The position numbers were made by a program, and so were the translations under genes. From an uncultured Burkholderiales bacterium (GTDB lineage: Bacteria; Pseudomonadota; Gammaproteobacteria; Burkholderiales; Burkholderiaceae_C): 64,000 nt of DNA. The stretch covers positions 1-64,000 of the forward strand of contig CAIZSE010000082.1 of assembly GCA_903935585.1 (NCBI GenBank), given 5' to 3'. How positions within the stretch are numbered: position 1 is the stretch's first letter; the number at the start of each line of letters is the position of its first letter. Shown piece after piece: positions 36,301-46,484 of this stretch. The notes under the pieces were generated by a model. It searched no databases, was not told the origin of the DNA, and was given only the letters and a program-made list of their open reading frames with translations.

Positions 36301-37242
36301 TCAGGCCATCAACTTCTTCATCGCCTCTTCGTATTTGGCGGCGGTTTTTTCGATGACCTCCCGAGGCAAACGCGGTGCGGGCGGGGTTTTGTCCCAAGGC
36401 TTGCCATTGACCTGCGCGGTTTCGAGCCAGTCACGCAAGAACTGCTTGTCGTAGCTGGGTGGGTTGGCGCCTGCCACATAGCTGTGTTCATACAAGTCTG
36501 TGGGCCAGTAACGTGAAGAATCAGGCGTCAGCACCTCGTCCATCAGCACCAGGGTGCCGTCGGTGTCCAGGCCAAACTCGAACTTGGTGTCGGCAATGAT
36601 GATGCCCTTGGTGGCCGCGATGTCACGCGCTGCTTTGTAGAGTTGGATGCTGATGTCGCGGATGCGGGTGGCCAGATCGGCGCCGATCATGGCCACGGTT
36701 TGCTCAAACGTGATGTTCTCGTCGTGCTCACCGACTGCCGCTTTGGCCGCCGGGGTGTAAATGGGCTCAGGCAGTTGGCTGGCATTTTTCAGGCCTGCGG
36801 GCAACTGCACACCGCACACGGCCTGGTTGTCCTGGTATTCCTTCCAGCCGCTGCCTGCCAAATAGCCGCGCACCACCGCCTCCACAGGGATGGGCTTGAG
36901 GCGCTTGACCAGCATGGAGCGGCCTCGCACTTGGGACACTTCGTCTGCCGAGACCACGCTCTCGGGGGCTTCACCGGTCAGGTGGATCGGGCAAATGTTC
37001 AGGCCTTTGGGGCCGAGTTGGTCAAACCAGAACAGCGCCATTTGCGTGAGCAGAACCCCTTTGCCGGGGATGGGCTCGCCCATGATCACGTCAAACGCGC
37101 TGATGCGGTCAGACGCCACCATGAGGATGCGGTCGTCGCCCACCGCGTAGTTGTCACGCACCTTGCCACGCGCCAGCAGGGGCAATGAGGTGAGGGCAGA
37201 GGTGTGGAGGGCAGAGGTGTGCGGGGCAGGGAAAGCGGTCAT
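36301..37242 (-). CDS. purC: Phosphoribosylaminoimidazole-succinocarboxamide synthase
   Basis: A 313-residue SAICAR synthase of the longer type ([48 protein letters not shown]). It joins aspartate to CAIR. The start at 37242 (MTAFPAPH) overlaps the stop of the SWIM-protein gene by ATGA, so purC is now translationally coupled to the restriction-modification operon; an in-frame upstream codon at 37308 is inside that gene. A small duplication ([10 protein letters not shown]) near residue 10 comes from a 15-base repeat at about 37196-37225. In related genomes purC usually follows fba directly. Confidence 0.95.
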
Positions 37243-39074
37243 GAAATCGGTAGCTCTTTGGTGAAGTTTCGCTTGGCCTTGTATTGTGAACGCAAGCTGG
37301 CCAACCAAAGCGCTCTGTCATCGACATTCATGCGGTCAAGCGCCAAGCGCACCAGATTCAAAACCTCTGTGTAGGGCGTACTGGCTCGGGGCATGGTGTG
37401 TTCAAACAAGCGCAGAAACAGCACCCTGGCTTGCACATCTTGCGACTTGGGCAGATGGCTGGCCAAGGCCAACAGCAGCCGGGCATCGCATTGCACACCC
37501 TGCTGCATGACCAAACCCAAGGCTGCACTCAGGTCTTTTTCCACCTCTGAAAGCCACCGCACACGCACCGAGACATCCACGATGGCTCGACCGCTGGGAC
37601 TGCCCCAGGCCCTCTCGGTGCGTTGCTCTTGGGACGCAGCCCAATCCATCAGCGATTGTCGGTATACCTGCACGTCACGTCCCGCTCGCTGGGCGGCTTG
37701 AAGCACCGCTTTGTAATGGTCGCTGCTGGGCTGGCTTTGCAGCCTTTTTTGCCAAATGGACAGCGCCTCCTCGTCATACCCATCGCGCTCATAAGCCCTC
37801 AACAGGGCCGATTCGATTCGCGCATCGGCGGGGTGTTGTTTGAACGCTTTTTGTGACAGGGTCATGGCCTCGCGCCAACGCTGACGCGCTTCGCACCACT
37901 GCACCAGCTCAGCCCATTCACCGGGGGTGTCGGCTGTGCTGCTCATCACAGCAAATACGCTTGATTCGTCGCCTTGCCGGTTCAAATCGTCTAAATAGGC
38001 GCTGCGACGTTCGCTGCGATCACGGTCCCAGTGGCCTTGCGCTTTGGGGTGCTTCGCATGCCATTCCTGCCAGTCTTTAGCCACCTGCAAACTGTAAGCC
38101 TTTTGTACAGCGGGGCCAGCGGCTGCGATGACCTCCCTGCTGGGGCTCAAACCCCAAGGGTCTTGCTGGGCCAAAGCCAACCAGGTCTTGAGCCAACTGG
38201 CGGGCGGCGGGTCGGCCTGCAAGCAAAGTGAGAGCAGCAAAGTGGTTCGGGGAATCAGCTCGCTGAACTCGCCTCCCCACGAGTCATCGGCGCTCTCGCC
38301 CACTTTGTAGAGGCGTTTGAGCGCTTCTTCGCACAAGGCCCGCGCCTGGGCTGGCGATTTCTCGAGCACGGTTTCGATGATCGGGAAGATTTGTTCGGCC
38401 CGGCGCAAATAAGGCCCGCAATCGCGGGGCTCCAGAAACCCTTTGGGGTTTTTGAGCAACTCGCGAACCGCTGCTTGCGCAGCGCGGACATCGCCACCCT
38501 CCAGGCTGTTTTTGACCGCACTCTGGGCTTGCCATGCTTTGAGCCGAGCCATCACCTCTTTGTCGCCATCGGCCAGTTGCCACAACAAAGTTGCCAGCTC
38601 CTCGGCCTTTTGTGCAAAGACAAATTGGCGCAAGGTTTCGATGTTATTGGCACGCGTTTGAGCACGCTTGGCTGCAGCCTGGACTTGCTTGACCGCACCG
38701 GGGTCAGGCAAAACATCAACGCCCCTCAAACGGGCGCGCCACACCAAAGCCAGTGCGACTTGGTGCTTGCAAAAAAACCCTTCTTGCCCCTGCGGGCAGT
38801 CGCAGTCGCCGTTCAAATCGTCGTCGGGCAACCACCAGATTTCGGTGTCGTAAACCTCGCTGCCGTGCACCCTGGCGCGTGCACCCATCAAGTGAAAAGG
38901 TGTGGGCGCCAAATCTTCCAGGCCTTGCACCGCCCCGCTGGCGGCATAAGCTTTGCCACGGGCAAACACCTTGTCGCTCGCCATATCGCTCAGCGCTTCA
39001 TTGCTCAGGTCTTGGAAAAGTTGACGGGCCTGCGCTTGAACAAGGGCCGAAGGGTCACCCGCACGTGCACTCAC
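37239..39074 (-). CDS. SWIM zinc-finger protein of unknown function, defence-operon member
   Basis: A 611-residue protein. A SWIM zinc finger is complete: Cys91-x-Cys93-x8-Cys102-x-His104 ([14 protein letters not shown]). The rest is helical, with an alternating pattern that resembles TPR/solenoid repeats (for example [20 protein letters not shown] and neighbours, about 380-560). No enzymatic motif was found. SWIM domains bind DNA or protein. The ATG at 39074 overlaps the methyltransferase stop and the TGA overlaps purC, so it is tied to both. A role in the restriction system (DNA recognition, regulation or assembly) is inference from context. Confidence 0.8.
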
Positions 39075-41704
39075 AACACGATCACCTTGGTGCTCTCCTC
39101 GCCAAACTGGCTGATCACTCGCACCGCCAGCTTGCGGCCTTTGTCGGCCTGCACCGGGTGCGAGACAAAGCCATACAGGCGCTCAAACGCCTCGTCGTCC
39201 AGCTCGATCTTGAGGGTTTGCTCGGCCGCTTTTTTGGTGGAGGCCACCGCCAGCGACTGCAAGCCTTTTTTGAACTTGGCAAACTCGTCTTTGTCGCCAC
39301 CGCAAAAAAACACCTGGCTGGGCATGAAGTTGGAGCCGTCGTACTGGTCGTCCAGCATCCAGTACGAAATATCGGCCACGCTGCGGCCCTTGACCTCGTC
39401 GCGCACCGGGTCGTATATGTCCAGGCCCTTGATCTCCACCTGCACGCTGCCCGCGCTGCGAATCAAGCCAATGTCGGGCTCGCCAATGGTGACAAAGCTG
39501 GCGGCTTTTTTGTCTTTTTTAATCAGGCCGTCTTGCATCAGGTCGTCGTGCATGCGGGCCTTGGTCACCTCGAAGCTGCCCACCTTGCGGGTGACGCTGC
39601 GGTTGTCGATGTCGCTCTCAAACGCAAAGCCCAAGATCACCAACCAATCGGCGTCAGCACGGCGGCTGCAGGCCTTGACCGCCGCATTGACTGCGGCTTT
39701 GCTCACGCTGCCAAACTGCGGGCCAATGACCAAATAGGCCTTGCGCTCGCCCTGGGCGGTGTCGTACCAGCCCTCAGCGTGCAAAGCGCCTTCGGCATCG
39801 TTGATGAGGTCCACCCGGCTGAACACGGCGGTTTCATTGCGGTCGCCGTTTTTGATGCCAGCCGTTTTAAGGTGCTCAAAAATCCGGTCGGTGAAGCGCT
39901 GCACATTGCCCATATCGGCATTGGCCGCATTGAGCTGCTCGGGCGCCAGGGGCTCAAAGCTTTGCAGCGTCTCGACCGTGAAGGGGCCTGCCACGCGCAG
40001 CTTTTTCTTGTCCTGCTCGGGTTGGTCAAACAGGGTTTCGGTATCAGGCGGCTCGCCATTGGCCAGGCTTTTGAGCGTGACGTGCGGCACCGTCTTGTAA
40101 ACAAAGCCGTGGCGTATGTCGCCGGCTGCCGTGTCGGCCAACTTGTACCAAGGGTAGGTGGCGGTCATGAGGCGCGTCTTGGCGATGTTGAGCGCAATGC
40201 GGCTGGTATCGGTGGTGATCCAGCGACGCCCCCACTGCTCGGCCACATGCGCCGTGGTGCCGCTGCCGCAAGTCGGGTCCAGCACCAGGTCGCCAGGGTC
40301 GGTGGTCATTAGGATGCAGCGTTCAATAACGCGCTGTCCAGTTTGAACCACATAGTGGCGCTCACCGCTACCGCTAACGTCTTCCCAAAGATTACCAATT
40401 GGATATGCCGGAAAATCATCCAAAAACTTGATGTAGTTCAGGCTTTTGGTACCCGCATGCAACCTGTCTGCATCAGCAAGCCGTGTCATTCCTTCGTGAG
40501 TAGTTGTCCACGTTCGGTTTGCAGGTGGTAAAAACTTTCGGCCATTAAACAAGAACTCTGTTTTTTCATGGTCTTTAGCTGGCCGATTTGAAGAAAGCGT
40601 AATGTGCCTAAAAAATCGAGTGCCCTTTGGAATTTCATCTAATGAACTAGCAGTCACCACCGAACCATCGGGTAACAAAGCTTGGTCATAGCGCTCACCA
40701 GTACTGTGCCCTTCTCCGAATTTGACTTCTTTGTATAGCTGTCTGTACTTGATAGCGCCAATATCTTTGGCATACCAAACCAAATAGTCACTCACAGGTG
40801 ACAACAAATTTGATGTTTGCCCACCCGTTTTTTTGAACGTGATCAGCGAAACAAAATTCTCACTCCCAAACACCTCGTCCATCAAACACCGCACCAGGTG
40901 CACGTTCTCATCGCTGATCTGCACAAAACAACTGCCTGAGTTGGAGAGCAGTTCCTTGGCCACCAGCAGGCGGTCGCGCAGGTAGCTCAAATAGCTGTGG
41001 ATGCCCAGCTCCCAGGTGTCGCGAAAGGCTTTGATGACTTCGGGCTCGCCGCTCAGGTTTTCGTCCGCGCCGTCTTTCACGTTGCGGTCGTTCAAGCGCA
41101 TTTGCCAGTTGCTGCCGTATTTGATGCCGTAGGGCGGGTCCATGTAGAGGCACTGCACTTGGCCCGCCATGCCCTCGCGCTCCAGCAAGCTGGTCATGGT
41201 CAGCAGGCTGTCGCCCTGGATCATGCGGTTTTGCCATTTGTCAGAGTGGCGGTAGTAGGCACCGGGTTTGTCCAGCTCGTCGAGCGCCAGCGGGTTGCCG
41301 TGAAGCTCGTTGACAAACAGTTCGTCTTGCGCAGCGTCGCGGCTTTTGAGGCTGTAGAGCCGGGCAATGATTTTTTCAGGCGCAATGTGTTCGTGCCGGT
41401 ACAGGCTGCGAATGTCCACGTTCAAAGCCGTTTGCTGGTCGGACTCGCCGTATTTATGCAGCCAGAAAAGCTCGGGGTCTTGGCCTCGGTGGGTGACGGG
41501 GTTGAGCGGCACGGCTTTGACGGTGGGCAAGCCCTGCACGGCGTCGGCTTCTTGCCCGGCTTCTTCGCGGCTGGGGATGAACACACGTTTGGCTGCGCCA
41601 GGGTCTTTGGCGTCGTAAGGGTGCTCGATGGCAGCAACCGGTTTGCGGCTGCCTTTGGCGGTGTCACCGGCTTGGGCTTTTGGGGGTGTTTTTTTGGTGG
41701 CCAT
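39071..41704 (-). CDS. Site-specific DNA methyltransferase, type III-like Mod subunit
   Basis: An 877-residue beta-class amino-methyltransferase: catalytic DPPY at 189-192 ([14 protein letters not shown]) precedes the SAM-binding motif DPTCGSGTT (476-484). The target-recognition segment lies between, about 285-460. The long C-terminal part carries [30 protein letters not shown] and further mixed alpha/beta sequence. It would methylate adenine or cytosine at the site cut by the partner helicase/nuclease. Start is MATKKTPP at 41704. It lies ten bases after the MazF-like gene and overlaps the SWIM gene by four bases. The 40327-40852 segment is clearly lower in G+C, suggesting exchange of the recognition domain. 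Confidence 0.9.
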
Positions 41705-41714
41705 GGTGTGTGTC

Positions 41715-42074
41715 TCAGTTGCAACCAAGATGGGGGCACAGGTGTTGGCGCACTTGTGCTAACACTTCGGGCCGAATGCGTGCGATGGGTGCGGTACACA
41801 AATCAGTGTGAACGGGGGCCAGTTTGCTGATCTTCAGAGCGCTGGGCTTAGACAATTGCCCATGCGTCAAGTCTTGAGGCCCCAAGTGCAGGATGTGGTG
41901 CGCGTTCAATTGGCTGGTAATGGGCATGAGCAGCATGTCGCCGTAGTCGTCGGGTGCGGTCACGATCAGTGCCGGCCGGGGTTTGGCTTTTGTGCCGTCG
42001 GCAAAAGGGTATTGAACGAGCACGATGTCGCCGATTTGCAGTGCGCCAAGGCTGGCAGGATGGTTGGGGTTCAC
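41715..42074 (-). CDS. MazF/PemK-like growth-inhibitor family protein without a visible antitoxin
   Basis: A 119-residue protein with the PemK/MazF beta-barrel opening: [10 protein letters not shown], then [12 protein letters not shown] (the basic KPRPAL stretch) and MLLMPITSQ. Members are mRNA endonucleases or related growth inhibitors. The likely start is the GTG at 42074, which overlaps the res stop as GTGA; a TTG at 42086 is possible. No antitoxin gene lies next to it: res is upstream and mod ten bases downstream. It may therefore be an effector or regulator of the restriction system rather than a free toxin. That role is inferred. Confidence 0.78.
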
Positions 42075-45000
42075 TGGTCGTTCCAAATCTCGTCGTCTGC
42101 GTTATCCCAAATCTGGCGCAAGCTCACAGAACTGGCGGCCATCCAAAAATGTCGTTCGGCCGACGCATCCACTTCGATGCTGACACGCTCAATTTCTTCG
42201 GCCAGTGTGTTTTTGATGCGCTCGATGTCGGTGATTTCGCAAAAGTACCAGGGCAAGCCCCCAGCCAAACCCAACTGGGCGCGCTGGGCGTTGACGGCGG
42301 GCAGCCAGCGTTGGGTGGTGAAGTAGCGCTTGAGTTCTTTGTCTTTGGCAAAGCCGGTGATTTCGACAATCAGGTTGAACAGCTCGCCCTCGGGAGTTTT
42401 CACGCGGCACAAAAAGTCGGGCTGGTATTGGCGCTCGGTGCCTTGTTTGTCCACATACGGTATGGCAAAACCCAAAAAGGCGTTCTTCACGTAACTTTGG
42501 ACCGCTGGCATTTTCTCAAAGGTTTTGGCGGCAATTTGCTCCCAACTGTCGGTGTCGGCAACGACAAAGTTCACATGGCTCTTCTTGGTGGGATAAACCG
42601 GCTTGGTGGTGGCCCCGTGCACATAGGCCGAGCTGGAGCGTGGGTTGTAGTGGTTGAGCAGGGGCAATATTTGCGGTGCCCGCTCGGCGCCTGTGTCCAG
42701 TTGTTTTTGCAGGGCTGCCGCTTCAACGCCCAAATACACGGCGCGGGCCACGGATTTGGGGTCTTCCACACGTATCAGGCGTTTGTAGCGAACGTCGGTT
42801 TCGCCCACCAGTTCGATCTTGCGGTCAAACCACTGCTGCGCAATGCGGCGGATGTCGGTGAACTTTTCAAGCTGGGGGCGGCCTTGGTCATCGCGGTAGT
42901 AACGGCTCATGACTTCTTTGGCAATCCAGTACACCACCTCTTGGTCACGCATGCTGTCGACATCGGTGATCAGCTCTTGTTCTTCAGACGAAAAGGCACT
43001 GCCCATGGTGGTTTGGGTCGGGCGCTCGTGGAGGTTGAGCACGTGCATGGGGGTGCTGGCAAAGTCGGCGCGCACGCCTTCAAGATCGTGGTTGATTTTG
43101 TAGCCAAGCAGGTTCGGGAACTCAATGGCCAGTTCGGCGCGCTCGGGCATGGCGAGCAATTGTTGGATGTCTTGTGGGGTGGGCGCGGTGGTTTCACCGC
43201 CTTTGAAAAACTTGAAGGGCACGCCGATGATGTGGGCGTATTCGGGCGGGAATTTGCCGGTCTTCGGGTCCAGAAAATACTGCCTTCGACGCAAGGCTCG
43301 TCCGGCCACTTGCTCGCACAACAGTTGCGAGCCAAAGGCACGCACGCCCACGATGTGGGTGACGGTGTTGGCATCCCATCCCTCGGTGAGCATGCCCACA
43401 CTGACCACGCAGCGGATGTGTTCACCCAATTTGCCGGGTCGCCCCACGGTGTTGACGACTTCACGCAGCAAGTCGCCATCGGTCAAAGCGTCCACCGATT
43501 TGTCGGGGTAACTGAGCCGGTACTCGCGTTTGAAAGCATCAATTTCAGGAGAGAACACCCGCTTGAATTCGTCGTTCACTTGGCCTGAGTTTTCCAGGGC
43601 ATCGGAGTCGATCAGCAAGGTGGGCGGCTTGCGGCGGCGCTGGCGTGTGTGGGTCTCGTAGTTCGAAAACAAAGGCAAGAGGCCTTCCACCGCAAAGGGA
43701 CGACCTTCATCGTCCAAAGTTTCATAGCCCGCGATGTGTTTGTAGACCTCTTTGGACACGGTGGTGTTGCTGCACACCACGATGAACACGGGCGGCGATG
43801 TCAGCAGGTCTTTGCCGCGCTCGCCCGTCTCGCGCAGGCCACGTTCGTATTTTTCGTAGTGCTCATAGAACTGCCGTAAGGCCGTTTTGAGCAAGCCAGG
43901 CAACTCAGGTGGGCGCTCCAAGGATGCGTTGTCTTTGCCGCTCGATTTGCCCACGCCATCGGCTTTATCGCTCTTGCGTTGACCGCGTTGGCCCTTCTTA
44001 AAGAGTTCGTCTTTGCAGTGGTCGTAAAGGTTGCGAAGCTTAGGTTCATCCAGTTCTTGCGAGGTGTCATCCACCGGCAAAAACGGAATCTTGACCAAGC
44101 CGGCCTCAATGGCTTCGATCAAGCCAAAGTCGCTGACCACCCAAGGGAAATAGGCATACGCCGGCCAGCCAGAGCCGGACAGGTAATACGGCGTTGCAGA
44201 CAAGTCATAGACCGCGCCAAGTTGCCAGCGTTTGGCCATTTCGCGCAAACCGCTGAACCAAACTGCCGCACGCTCGTTCTCGGTGGCGCTATTGTCCTCT
44301 TCGGTGTCTTTGCCTTTGGCCCTGGGCAAGTAGCAGTGGTGCGCTTCGTCGTTGATGACCGCCAAGCGCCTGCCGGGTTTGAAGTGACTCAGCACCCGCT
44401 TGAGCATTTGGGAGACATCTTCACGGGCTTGAACTTTTTGACCATCTGCGCCGATTTTGCCGTCCAAGGGGCTTCGCTTGTTGCCGCCAATAAGCCGAGG
44501 TTCAAACGCATGGAAGTTGGTGATGCTCAGTTTGGCGTTCAATCCGGCCAATAAGCCCGCATAGGCTGCAGGCACCAATTGACGTTCGCGGTAATAGTCC
44601 TGTGCTTCGTTGTCGCTTTGCGCGTGGGTGTCGACTCGCAAAACGTTCAAACGGTCGCGAATGGTGATGCCCGGCGCTACCAACAAAAAATAGTCCACGT
44701 AGCGTGGGTCGTTTCGGTATTGGCTGCGGTTTAAATAGTGATAAAGGATCAGGCAGGCCATAACCACTGTCTTGCCAGTGCCTGTGGCCATTTTGAAGGC
44801 GATGCGCGGCAGCACGCTGGCGGGGTCTTCCACGCTTTCATTGGCCAATCGCAGTTGGTCCAGCACATGTGTGCCTACATTGGATTTGTGTGCCACCTCA
44901 TTGAGCCAAATGCCGGTTTCCACCGCCTCTTGCTGCGCAAAGAACAAGCGCTTCCAGTCGGGGCGCTCCGGGTTCAAAAACCAAAATTGCAGCAAGTCTC

Positions 45001-45322
45001 TGGTCACGCGACTGGTGACATCAGGGTAAGCAGACTGCCGCCAGAGTGACACTTGATCGCGCAGCAAATTGACCAAAAGACTTTGGTAATTGGCCGCGTG
45101 GTCGTTCAGGTCATAAAGACTGGTTTGCGCTTGTTGCCCCAAAGGCACTTGTGGGGTTTGCGGCGAAAAGACGCGTCGCCCTGGTCGAATATCGTTGTAA
45201 TTGAGTTCGCCCTCTACGGTTGTGGCGTAGTGATGGCTGGGTGCATCGTAGGGGCTGTTGAGGATAGGCGAGTCAGCTGCCACCTGTTGCTTTTTCCCGG
45301 GTTTGTCGATCTTTTTGACCAT
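42071..45322 (-). CDS. Type III-like restriction enzyme, DEAD-type helicase and nuclease (BPTD_3080-like)
   Basis: A 1083-residue protein. Walker A MATGTGKT (178-185) and Walker B NDEAHH (324-329) define an SF2 helicase/translocase; GVRAFGSQLLCEQVAGRALRR is the motif VI region. The C-terminal nuclease-like core has PDFLCRV (from 968) and LIVEITGFAKDK with Glu987, where the third residue of the usual ExK is Thr. I recall related proteins as the BPTD_3080 restriction family. It would translocate and cut unmodified DNA with the Mod protein encoded downstream. It is the first gene of the operon. The RBS before the ATG at 45322 is weak. Confidence 0.87.
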   Translation of the reverse strand: MVKKIDKPGKKQQVAADSPILNSPYDAPSHHYATTVEGELNYNDIRPGRRVFSPQTPQVPLGQQAQTSLYDLNDHAANYQSLLVNLLRDQVSLWRQSAYPDVTSRVTRDLLQFWFLNPERPDWKRLFFAQQEAVETGIWLNEVAHKSNVGTHVLDQLRLANESVEDPASVLPRIAFKMATGTGKTVVMACLILYHYLNRSQYRNDPRYVDYFLLVAPGITIRDRLNVLRVDTHAQSDNEAQDYYRERQLVPAAYAGLLAGLNAKLSITNFHAFEPRLIGGNKRSPLDGKIGADGQKVQAREDVSQMLKRVLSHFKPGRRLAVINDEAHHCYLPRAKGKDTEEDNSATENERAAVWFSGLREMAKRWQLGAVYDLSATPYYLSGSGWPAYAYFPWVVSDFGLIEAIEAGLVKIPFLPVDDTSQELDEPKLRNLYDHCKDELFKKGQRGQRKSDKADGVGKSSGKDNASLERPPELPGLLKTALRQFYEHYEKYERGLRETGERGKDLLTSPPVFIVVCSNTTVSKEVYKHIAGYETLDDEGRPFAVEGLLPLFSNYETHTRQRRRKPPTLLIDSDALENSGQVNDEFKRVFSPEIDAFKREYRLSYPDKSVDALTDGDLLREVVNTVGRPGKLGEHIRCVVSVGMLTEGWDANTVTHIVGVRAFGSQLLCEQVAGRALRRRQYFLDPKTGKFPPEYAHIIGVPFKFFKGGETTAPTPQDIQQLLAMPERAELAIEFPNLLGYKINHDLEGVRADFASTPMHVLNLHERPTQTTMGSAFSSEEQELITDVDSMRDQEVVYWIAKEVMSRYYRDDQGRPQLEKFTDIRRIAQQWFDRKIELVGETDVRYKRLIRVEDPKSVARAVYLGVEAAALQKQLDTGAERAPQILPLLNHYNPRSSSAYVHGATTKPVYPTKKSHVNFVVADTDSWEQIAAKTFEKMPAVQSYVKNAFLGFAIPYVDKQGTERQYQPDFLCRVKTPEGELFNLIVEITGFAKDKELKRYFTTQRWLPAVNAQRAQLGLAGGLPWYFCEITDIERIKNTLAEEIERVSIEVDASAERHFWMAASSVSLRQIWDNADDEIWNDQ

Positions 45323-45419: not shown

Positions 45420-46484
45420 TCAGTTAACCACTTGCGTCAGCTCTCCCTTGGCGTAACGGGCAGCGACCACCTGCAGGTTATCGCCCTTGATCTTGGGCGC
45501 CTGGCCTTCGCAGCCGAACTCCAGGTAGCGCTGCTTGCAGATTTGCTTGGCCGCTTCGCGGGCGGGTTTGAGCCATTCACGGGCGTCAAACTTGTCGGGG
45601 TTTTCAAACAGGAACTTGCGCACCGCCGCAGTCATGGCCAGACGGATGTCGGTGTCGATGTTGATTTTGCGCACGCCGTGCTTGATGGCTTCCTGGATTT
45701 CCTCAACCGGCACGCCATAGGTTTGCTTCATCTGGCCGCCGTACTGGTTGATCATGGCCAGCAGCTCTTGCGGCACGCTGCTGGAACCGTGCATCACGAG
45801 GTGGGTGTTGGGGATGCGGGCGTGGATTTCTTTCACGCGGCTGATCGCCAGAATGTCGCCGGTGGGCTTGCGGCTGAACTTGTAGGCGCCATGGCTGGTG
45901 CCAATGGCGATGGCCAGCGCGTCCAGACCCGTGGCCTTGACGAACTGCGCGGCCTCTTCGGGGTCGGTCAGCATCTGGCTGTGGTCCAGTTTGCCCACGG
46001 CGCCGATGCCGTCTTCTTCACCCGCTTCGCCGGTTTCCAGATTGCCCAGGCAACCCAACTCGCCTTCGACCGACACGCCCAGCAAGTGGGCCATCTCGAC
46101 CACGCGGCGGGTCACCTCGACGTTGTACGCAAAATCGGCCGGGGTCTTGCCGTCTTCCAGCAAGGAGCCATCCATCATCACCGAGGAAAAGCCCAGATCG
46201 ATCGCGCCTTGGCAAATCGCCGGGCTTTGGCCGTGGTCCTGGTGCATGACCAGCGGGATGTGCGGCCACTGCTCGGTGGCGGCCTGGATCAAGTGCTTGA
46301 TAAAGGGCTCGCCGGCGTATTTGCGCGCGCCGGCACTGGCCTGCAGGATCACTGGCGCACCGACCTCGTCGGCAGCGGTCATGACGGCCTGGACTTGCTC
46401 CAGATTGTTGACGTTGAAAGCTGGAATGCCGTAGCCATTGATGGCCGCATGGTCCAGCAGCTCGCGCATTGAAACGAGTGCCAT
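45420..46484 (-). CDS. fba: Class II fructose-bisphosphate aldolase, Calvin-cycle subtype
   Basis: A 354-residue zinc aldolase with [10 protein letters not shown] (zinc histidine and catalytic Asp region), VEGELGCLG and VMHGSSSVP. The length and [16 protein letters not shown] start match the subtype common in betaproteobacteria. It cleaves fructose 1,6-bisphosphate in glycolysis and works in reverse in gluconeogenesis. The ATG at 46484 (MALVSMREL) is chosen; 14 extra upstream codons are open. The 185 bases between it and pyk contain no feature I can name. Confidence 0.95.

Follow-up and report, generated by a model that had tools for sequence, protein, structure and literature searches.

A restriction endonuclease with an antitoxin-like C-terminal tail as a putative antitoxin for the MazF-like toxin of its own operon

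A stretch of 64,000 nucleotides from an uncultured Burkholderiales bacterium (contig CAIZSE010000082.1 of assembly GCA_903935585.1; hereafter the window) carries four genes which run head to tail on one strand and encode a restriction endonuclease/helicase (Res), a MazF/PemK-like toxin, a type III-like DNA methyltransferase (Mod) and a SWIM zinc-finger protein (Table 1). An earlier note on this DNA, made from the letters alone, had pointed to these open reading frames (ORFs), and all four were found where it placed them, each with a match to a known family. Its description of the junctions holds for the GTGA overlap of res with mazF and for the 10 bases between mazF and mod; the mod and SWIM genes, however, overlap by GTGA (TTGTGAGTG) and not by ATGA, the latter being the junction between the SWIM gene and the next gene, one further along than previously described. 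The two housekeeping genes flanking the operon are, judged by their sequences, presumably purC and fba.

Table 1. Features of the restriction operon and its flanks (positions in the window)
Feature	Position	Strand	Remarks
Res	42071..45322	(-)	1083 aa; NCBIfam BPTD_3080-family restriction endonuclease/helicase with C-terminal antitoxin-like tail
Res residues 1041-1083, exchanged end holding the tail (from ~1048)	42074..42202	(-)	past the end of the family model
Antitoxin-like motif, Res residues 1060-1082	42077..42145	(-)	ends ..SLRQIWDNADDEIWND; HMM match and shuffles
MazF/PemK-like toxin	41715..42074	(-)	GTG start in the res stop; longest ORF from TTG 42086
Mod, type III-like DNA methyltransferase	39071..41704	(-)	ATG 41704; longest ORF from TTG 41728
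Mod region between both motifs, residues ~255-484, presumed target-recognition region	40277..40965	(-)	exchanged in sister species
SWIM zinc-finger and TPR protein, PDC-S62 family	37239..39074	(-)	co-located; role in the system putative
purC, downstream housekeeping gene	36301..37242	(-)	start overlaps the SWIM stop (ATGA)
fba, upstream housekeeping gene	45420..46484	(-)	flank

The Res protein matches the NCBIfam model NF046055 over residues 17-1043 with 975 bits (cut-off 800) and the ResIII profile at 6.6e-8; the Walker A residues, the NDEAHH motif and D969/E987 are invariant across 32 aligned Res proteins, and there is no ExK. The PADLOC REase_III models match it weakly (6e-5 or worse), and a search of the PDB returned no sequence match at 0.001. 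Mod matches PF01555 above the gathering score (1.9e-29) as well as the PADLOC model MTase_III (7.7e-164), and its motifs stand in the DPPY-first order typical of type III Mod proteins, with DPPY at 197 preceding DPTCGSGT at 484 (numbered from TTG 41728) and a variable region between them. The toxin matches PF02452 at 4.7e-10 (40.1 bits, cut-off 23.1) and has no match among plasmids at 1e-5. Judged by these matches, the operon is a type III-like restriction operon with a toxin gene in the slot between res and mod. It can be read as more than a chance assembly because a second species of the genus (G831) has all four genes at the identical site between fba and purC, where the ORFs listed for Res, MazF and Mod are all intact. 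No separate antitoxin gene was found beside the window mazF, wedged as it is between its two neighbors.

Most of 137 aligned Res proteins stop about 20 residues past a conserved block around P0004 positions 1028-1040. Those that run past this family end are the window Res, L150, L151 (the same as L085), L152, L164 and L316, all of which have a MazF or PIN gene and no antitoxin gene in the slot, and additionally L114. Later searches added further tail-bearing versions, namely L384 and L385 with MazF and L386 with PIN; L387 is cut before the tail. Among Res proteins of at least 880 residues with known context (rows marked as cut were left out, and L151/L085 was lost by de-duplication), at least 22 residues beyond P0004 position 1047 are present in 8/8 of those with a MazF or PIN gene and no antitoxin gene in the slot versus 1/117 of the others (Fisher p 8e-12, relatedness not being taken into account); if the cut is lowered to 20 residues, the counts become 8/8 versus 5/117. 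The lone exception among the others is L114 (6668-10007), a distant Res with a DUF4926-like extension (E 1.9e-4, below the Pfam cut-off), the end of whose gene is overlapped by a DUF6883 gene; this may represent a second, independent fusion of Res to an antitoxin. Further, the three PIN genes found in the slots of tail-less Res proteins are each preceded by a separate frame. That of L101 matches DUF2281, that of L102 does so below threshold, and in L116 it is an ORF of 98 codons whose end lies just within the start of the PIN gene. In an AlphaFold model of the window Res (32 alignment rows; mean predicted local distance difference test score, pLDDT, 77), a long helix (1033-1065) and a short helix (1068-1073) are followed by a disordered end, with pLDDT below 50 from 1075 (mean 52 for 1071-1080 and 39 for 1081-1083). 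Such predicted disorder is as expected of a binding tail in its unbound state.

The C-terminal end is the toxin-binding end of MazEF and VapBC antitoxins, and it is this end that the Res tails resemble. In 300 genomes of the order, the five MazF homologues that score best after the window MazF itself (L327-L331) each lie behind a frame of 64-68 amino acids (the start of the L330 frame was trimmed by hand), which ends in AQ...[ML]..[VI]WDN..[DE]E.WN. None of these upstream frames is annotated, and the one tested against Pfam gave a DUF2281-like match (1.2e-4) just below the cut-off; by position, size and likeness to the Res tails they appear to be antitoxin-like. The last ~36 residues of the window Res match the C-terminal end of these proteins: the Res tails read SLRQIWDNADDEIWND in the window, SLNSIWDNEEDEIWND in L316 and SMANVWDNPGDEVWNG in L164, and the end of the Escherichia coli MazE, NIDWGEPKDKEVW, bears a looser likeness to them.

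Two hidden Markov models (HMMs) were built solely from free-standing antitoxins, a MazE-type model from the neighbors of the five best MazFs, leaving lower-ranking ones unused, and a VapB model from nine plasmid antitoxins. Against 15,649 ORFs, the MazE-type model recovered the tails of L164 (6e-9) and the window (5e-6), with the next best at 2.8, and the VapB model those of L152 (2e-4) and L151 (2e-3), with the next best at 3.2; among 145 Res proteins, the former additionally recovered L316 (1e-9) and the latter L386 (2e-6). Seven of the nine tails are thereby assigned to the class that corresponds to the toxin in the slot (MazE-type in the window, L316 and L164; VapB-type in L152, L386, L085 and L150) and none to the wrong class. 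For each of the seven the real score was reached by 0 of 500 shuffles, L150 lying barely above them (8.0 bits vs a shuffle maximum of 7.4), and the other 136 Res C-termini fall in neither class, with a best score of 3.5 bits. In a search of 72,556 plasmid records, the L152 tail is best matched, albeit only at E 0.2, by a VapB-like gene that immediately precedes a VapC gene, and the PIN protein of the L152 slot is 52% identical to that VapC. As for the toxins themselves, R37 and T57 of MazF are invariant in the three slot MazFs aligned and match R29/T52 of the E. coli MazF (lined up by eye), and D8, E43 and D99 of the PIN proteins are invariant in four sequences; we take these residues to be catalytic in both cases.

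The sister species provides a view of how tail and toxin change. Aligned with that of G831, the window DNA is 98.2% identical over Res codons 1-667, 83.0% over 668-967 and 99.1% over 968-1040; identity then falls to 67.4% in the tail and 45.0% in mazF (gaps counted as differences; 31% for the protein) before reaching 94.3% at the start of mod. At the protein level, 27/43 residues of Res 1041-1083 are identical as compared with 73/73 just before. The exchanged unit thus extends from where the Res core ends to the end of mazF. The sister operons differ in the presumed Mod recognition region as well as in this cassette, with 59.7% nucleotide identity in the former between flanks of 91 and 93%, and Res codons 668-967 (window 42422-43321), at 83% between flanks of 98-99%, constitute a third exchanged tract.

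On a deeper scale, a tree of the Res cores (tails removed; 27 rows, L151 not among them) places the eight tail-bearing rows in one supported clade, within which the MazF/PIN label needs three changes, all of them forced by well-supported branches. In this tree L152, with a PIN gene and a VapB-type tail, is sister to L385, with MazF and a different tail. Random replacement of the MazF-like gene next to homologous res/mod pairs had been named by the earlier note as a finding that would speak against a joint function. Replacement does indeed occur among the loci examined; in the closest clade, however, it is not random, as tail and toxin change together there.

The wider family shows what else the slot can hold. 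Matches to Res above the cut-off are found in 30/399 genomes of the order and in 27/398 of the phylum, the window genome being counted in both. Of the 154 fetched loci examined, some from one genome, 131 hold a res-mod pair, whereas in 23 one of the two genes is missing or truncated; the count leaves out L243 and L085, which duplicate L151, as well as L119 and L240 (distant Res). The gap between res and mod is at most 150 bases in 41/131 pairs, and 87/131 have at least one same-strand ORF of at least 70 codons in it. The 117 slot ORFs of loci without a MazF/PIN tail include, among the 25 of 64 families listed, Fic (10), GmrSD (6), Bro-N (6), HicB-like (4), KilA-N (3) and PIN (3) versions, and a phmmer search with the window MazF across the fetched loci revealed no slot MazF besides those of L164, L384 and L385. 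Some slots appear to contain complete toxin-antitoxin (TA) pairs, i.e., HicA with a sub-threshold HicB in L216, a nucleotidyltransferase with HepT in L196 and DUF433 with DUF5615 in L220, the last two pairings being known kinds of TA pair. The viral contigs yielded a single Res locus (L366), which has no tail and in which mod was not seen.

The likeness of the tails to antitoxin ends, their pairing with the matching toxin, the joint exchange of the two and the absence of a separate antitoxin gene from the slot together lead us to consider it likely that Res doubles as the antitoxin for MazF by means of a fused antitoxin end, thereby guarding the restriction system and addicting the cell to it. 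The binding of MazF by the tail, its inhibition, the trigger of its release and the benefit to the host are predictions from sequence. Under this model, all that is left of the antitoxin of a TA pair would be its C-terminal end, now joined to that of Res, with the toxin gene overlapping the res stop. As long as Res is present, its intact tail would bind MazF and block the RNase site; destruction of Res, its displacement by an anti-restriction protein of a phage or loss of the operon would free MazF, which would then cleave RNA and stop growth. A single device could hence serve both as a guard of the restriction system and as a means of addicting the cell to the operon. The tail and toxin would form a cassette exchanged as a unit, be it between MazF alleles or for a VapC-type PIN with a VapB-type tail. 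With somewhat less assurance, we favor the broader proposition that the Res proteins of this clade are nuclease and antitoxin in one, the C-terminus acting as a plug-in port for swappable cassettes of toxin and antitoxin end (MazF types, VapC and possibly DUF4926/DUF6883 in the distant member).

Several observations weigh against this reading. The tails of L384 and L385, both with MazF in the slot, match neither HMM, and a search with the L385 MazF found only distant plasmid MazFs, the one antitoxin inspected there ending differently. Searches of plasmids and of the PDB found no match to the MazE-type tail; the VapB-type tail has only the above-mentioned E 0.2 match in plasmids and none in the PDB, and Pfam finds nothing in the four MazF/PIN tails tested. 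MazF homologues of lower rank are preceded by frames of other kinds, or by none that the script detected. If the two unclassified tails are left out, tail class changes only twice in the Res-core tree (counted by eye), and the grouping of all eight tail-bearing rows in one clade means that the fusion may have had a single origin. Further, toxin-like Fic and Zeta genes adjoin tail-less Res proteins in the slot, so that the tail rule may not be general. The absence of an antitoxin gene is a statement on the slot, the rest of the genome not having been searched for antitoxins, and the AlphaFold model of MazF (P0003, from a 2-row alignment) is too poor to use (pLDDT 39.8).

The last but one of these points bears on the best of the alternatives, namely that the tail is a mere scar, left after insertion of a TA module between res and mod and capture of the antitoxin frame by Res. 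MazF would by now have lost its activity or be restrained by another antitoxin, of which there may be some elsewhere in the genome. The tail does lack the N-terminal half of the antitoxin-like proteins, as a scar might. However, tails accompanied by intact toxin frames are spread over a deep clade and vary along with the toxin, the aligned slot MazFs retain R37 and T57, and both sister alleles are intact despite their divergence, all of which make a mere scar unlikely. A further possibility is that the antitoxin is a separate mini-protein translated from an internal start codon in the 3' end of res, in which case Res itself would not be the antitoxin. The window res has in-frame GTG1051, ATG1061, GTG1066 and TTG1068 codons, and a start at ATG1061 would yield a 23-residue peptide with nearly the whole motif; the tails nevertheless share no ATG start, and the VapB-type tail of L152 is devoid of methionine (GTG/TTG codons were not checked there), leaving this explanation rather improbable.

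The earlier note had itself proposed a four-part composite, in which MazF and the SWIM protein are both needed for phage restriction alongside Res and Mod. The tight overlaps and the recurrence of the same four genes in two species speak for this, as does the SWIM protein itself: it matches PF04434 (3.6e-4) and a TPR model above their gathering scores and the phage-defence candidate family PDC-S62 of PADLOC at 6.6e-27 over profile positions 9-556 of 566, which counts as full-length, and the G831 copy at the same place is 92.6% identical. Nonetheless, a SWIM homologue beside a BPTD_3080-family Res was detected only in the window and G831 and in none of three further sets of 60, 80 and 15 fetched loci, of which several are truncated and one place is counted twice. 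The 12 other fetched loci which do have a SWIM homologue show varied contexts, one being a different res/mod pair in divergent orientation. Among 90 genus genomes and the fetched loci, all four families were seen together only in the window and one sister species, and the idea of a conserved four-gene set was rejected. Of the two extra genes put forward as functional parts, the RNase-toxin gene is indeed built into the operon, whereas the SWIM protein was rejected as a general component, and we give little credence to the composite as a whole; the SWIM gene may be a defence gene in its own right that is merely carried with the operon. The notion that res and mod form an ordinary restriction pair of type III-like kind, and that the gene in their cargo slot is a passenger unrelated to them, is scarcely credible even if that slot takes many gene kinds or none, as it leaves unexplained why tail class equals toxin class in 7/9 cases and is never wrong.

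The proposal that Res acts as the antitoxin of MazF may be compared with known systems. In the type IC system EcoprrI, an RNA-cutting toxin gene, prrC, likewise lies in a restriction operon, and PrrC is silenced by the EcoprrI restriction enzyme and freed when restriction is inhibited (PMC3506569, PMC12707154). PrrC is, however, an ABC-ATPase anticodon nuclease, for which the parts of these papers drawn on here mention no antitoxin relic, whereas the window operon has no PrrC homologue but a MazF in the slot (a VapC-like toxin in some relatives), which an antitoxin end grafted onto Res is proposed to restrain. The MazEF and VapBC type II modules share the toxin families, and the C-termini matched by the Res tail belong to antitoxins encoded beside related toxins. 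Unlike those modules, the window has neither a free-standing antitoxin gene nor the N-terminal half of an antitoxin, the end sitting instead on a 1083-residue helicase-nuclease. A related arrangement is seen in the plasmid pALVIN02 of Allochromatium vinosum (L322, 4664-7744), where the VapBC pair that gave the best plasmid match of the L152 tail, with a related VapC and antitoxin end, is nested in a restriction operon, flanked by hsdS and the gene of a type I endonuclease. Its antitoxin, of 76 residues, has a gene of its own, unlike the tail of the window Res; perhaps such an arrangement was the starting point of the tail fusion. As for the operon core, i.e., a BPTD_3080-family Res with a type III-like Mod, 116/125 members of known context are without such a tail, their slot being empty or filled by other genes.

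Makarova et al. (2012; PMC3506569) noted that immunity loci, including Type I and Type III restriction systems, carry toxin genes without typical antitoxins, and proposed, with PrrC as the model, that the immune proteins themselves restrain the toxins. The general concept of immune proteins replacing antitoxins hence dates from 2012, with PrrC as its functional precedent, and the antitoxin-end tail on Res would be the new part; searches of the open-licence literature, some of them narrow, brought to light no description of a restriction subunit that carries the end of an antitoxin. If true, the arrangement would give that proposal a direct molecular form, with Res as the hostage-holder of a suicide RNase, and the grafted end would be a sequence-level answer, for one class, to the question of the missing antitoxins. 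This question would become directly testable with small constructs, as the part of Res to cut is known. It also suggests a search rule, whereby the C-termini of immune proteins are compared with antitoxin ends, which may reveal more such guards. Moreover, it suggests why the loss or blocking of such a restriction enzyme could be lethal, as the cell may depend on an intact Res.

With respect to genomic site, purC has fba directly upstream, with 47-379 bases between the aligned ends, in 27/30 purC loci from genus genomes, the exceptions being the window, G831 and G878. As the two genes adjoin in nearly all genus loci, the operon was most likely inserted between them. In a wider family sample, purC lies inside the 1.5 kb flank of fba in 19/30 loci, the window being among the other 11. 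A Res match is present in 3/90 genus genomes, i.e., that of the window, G831 (94%) and, as a 47% fragment, G862, and the closest named relatives by Res include a Rubrivivax and a Burkholderiales metagenome-assembled genome. In other relatives (L307, L308, L310, L311, L312 and L317) the fba-purC spacing is 1.9-5.1 kb, and such gaps suggest that the site may be an insertion hot spot.

Among the minor observations, a family of UvrD-like helicases of ~690 residues is encoded no more than 4.5 kb from the res-mod pair in 28 of the loci sampled first (L060-L119; e.g., L100:1210-3300 and L103:12566-14647). A weak HigB/RelE-like N-terminus, below the Pfam cut-off, is seen in 2/4 of those scanned, and the family could perhaps be another toxin-helicase partner of these restriction systems. 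A Cupriavidus metallidurans plasmid (L275) has a SWIM homologue, 28.7% identical over 76% of the query, in the vicinity of genes for a Tn3-family transposase and an integrase. Finally, the product of the window purC has a longer N-terminus than its relatives, with a repeated CACACCTCTGCCCT stretch, and the insertion may have replaced the gene's own leader.

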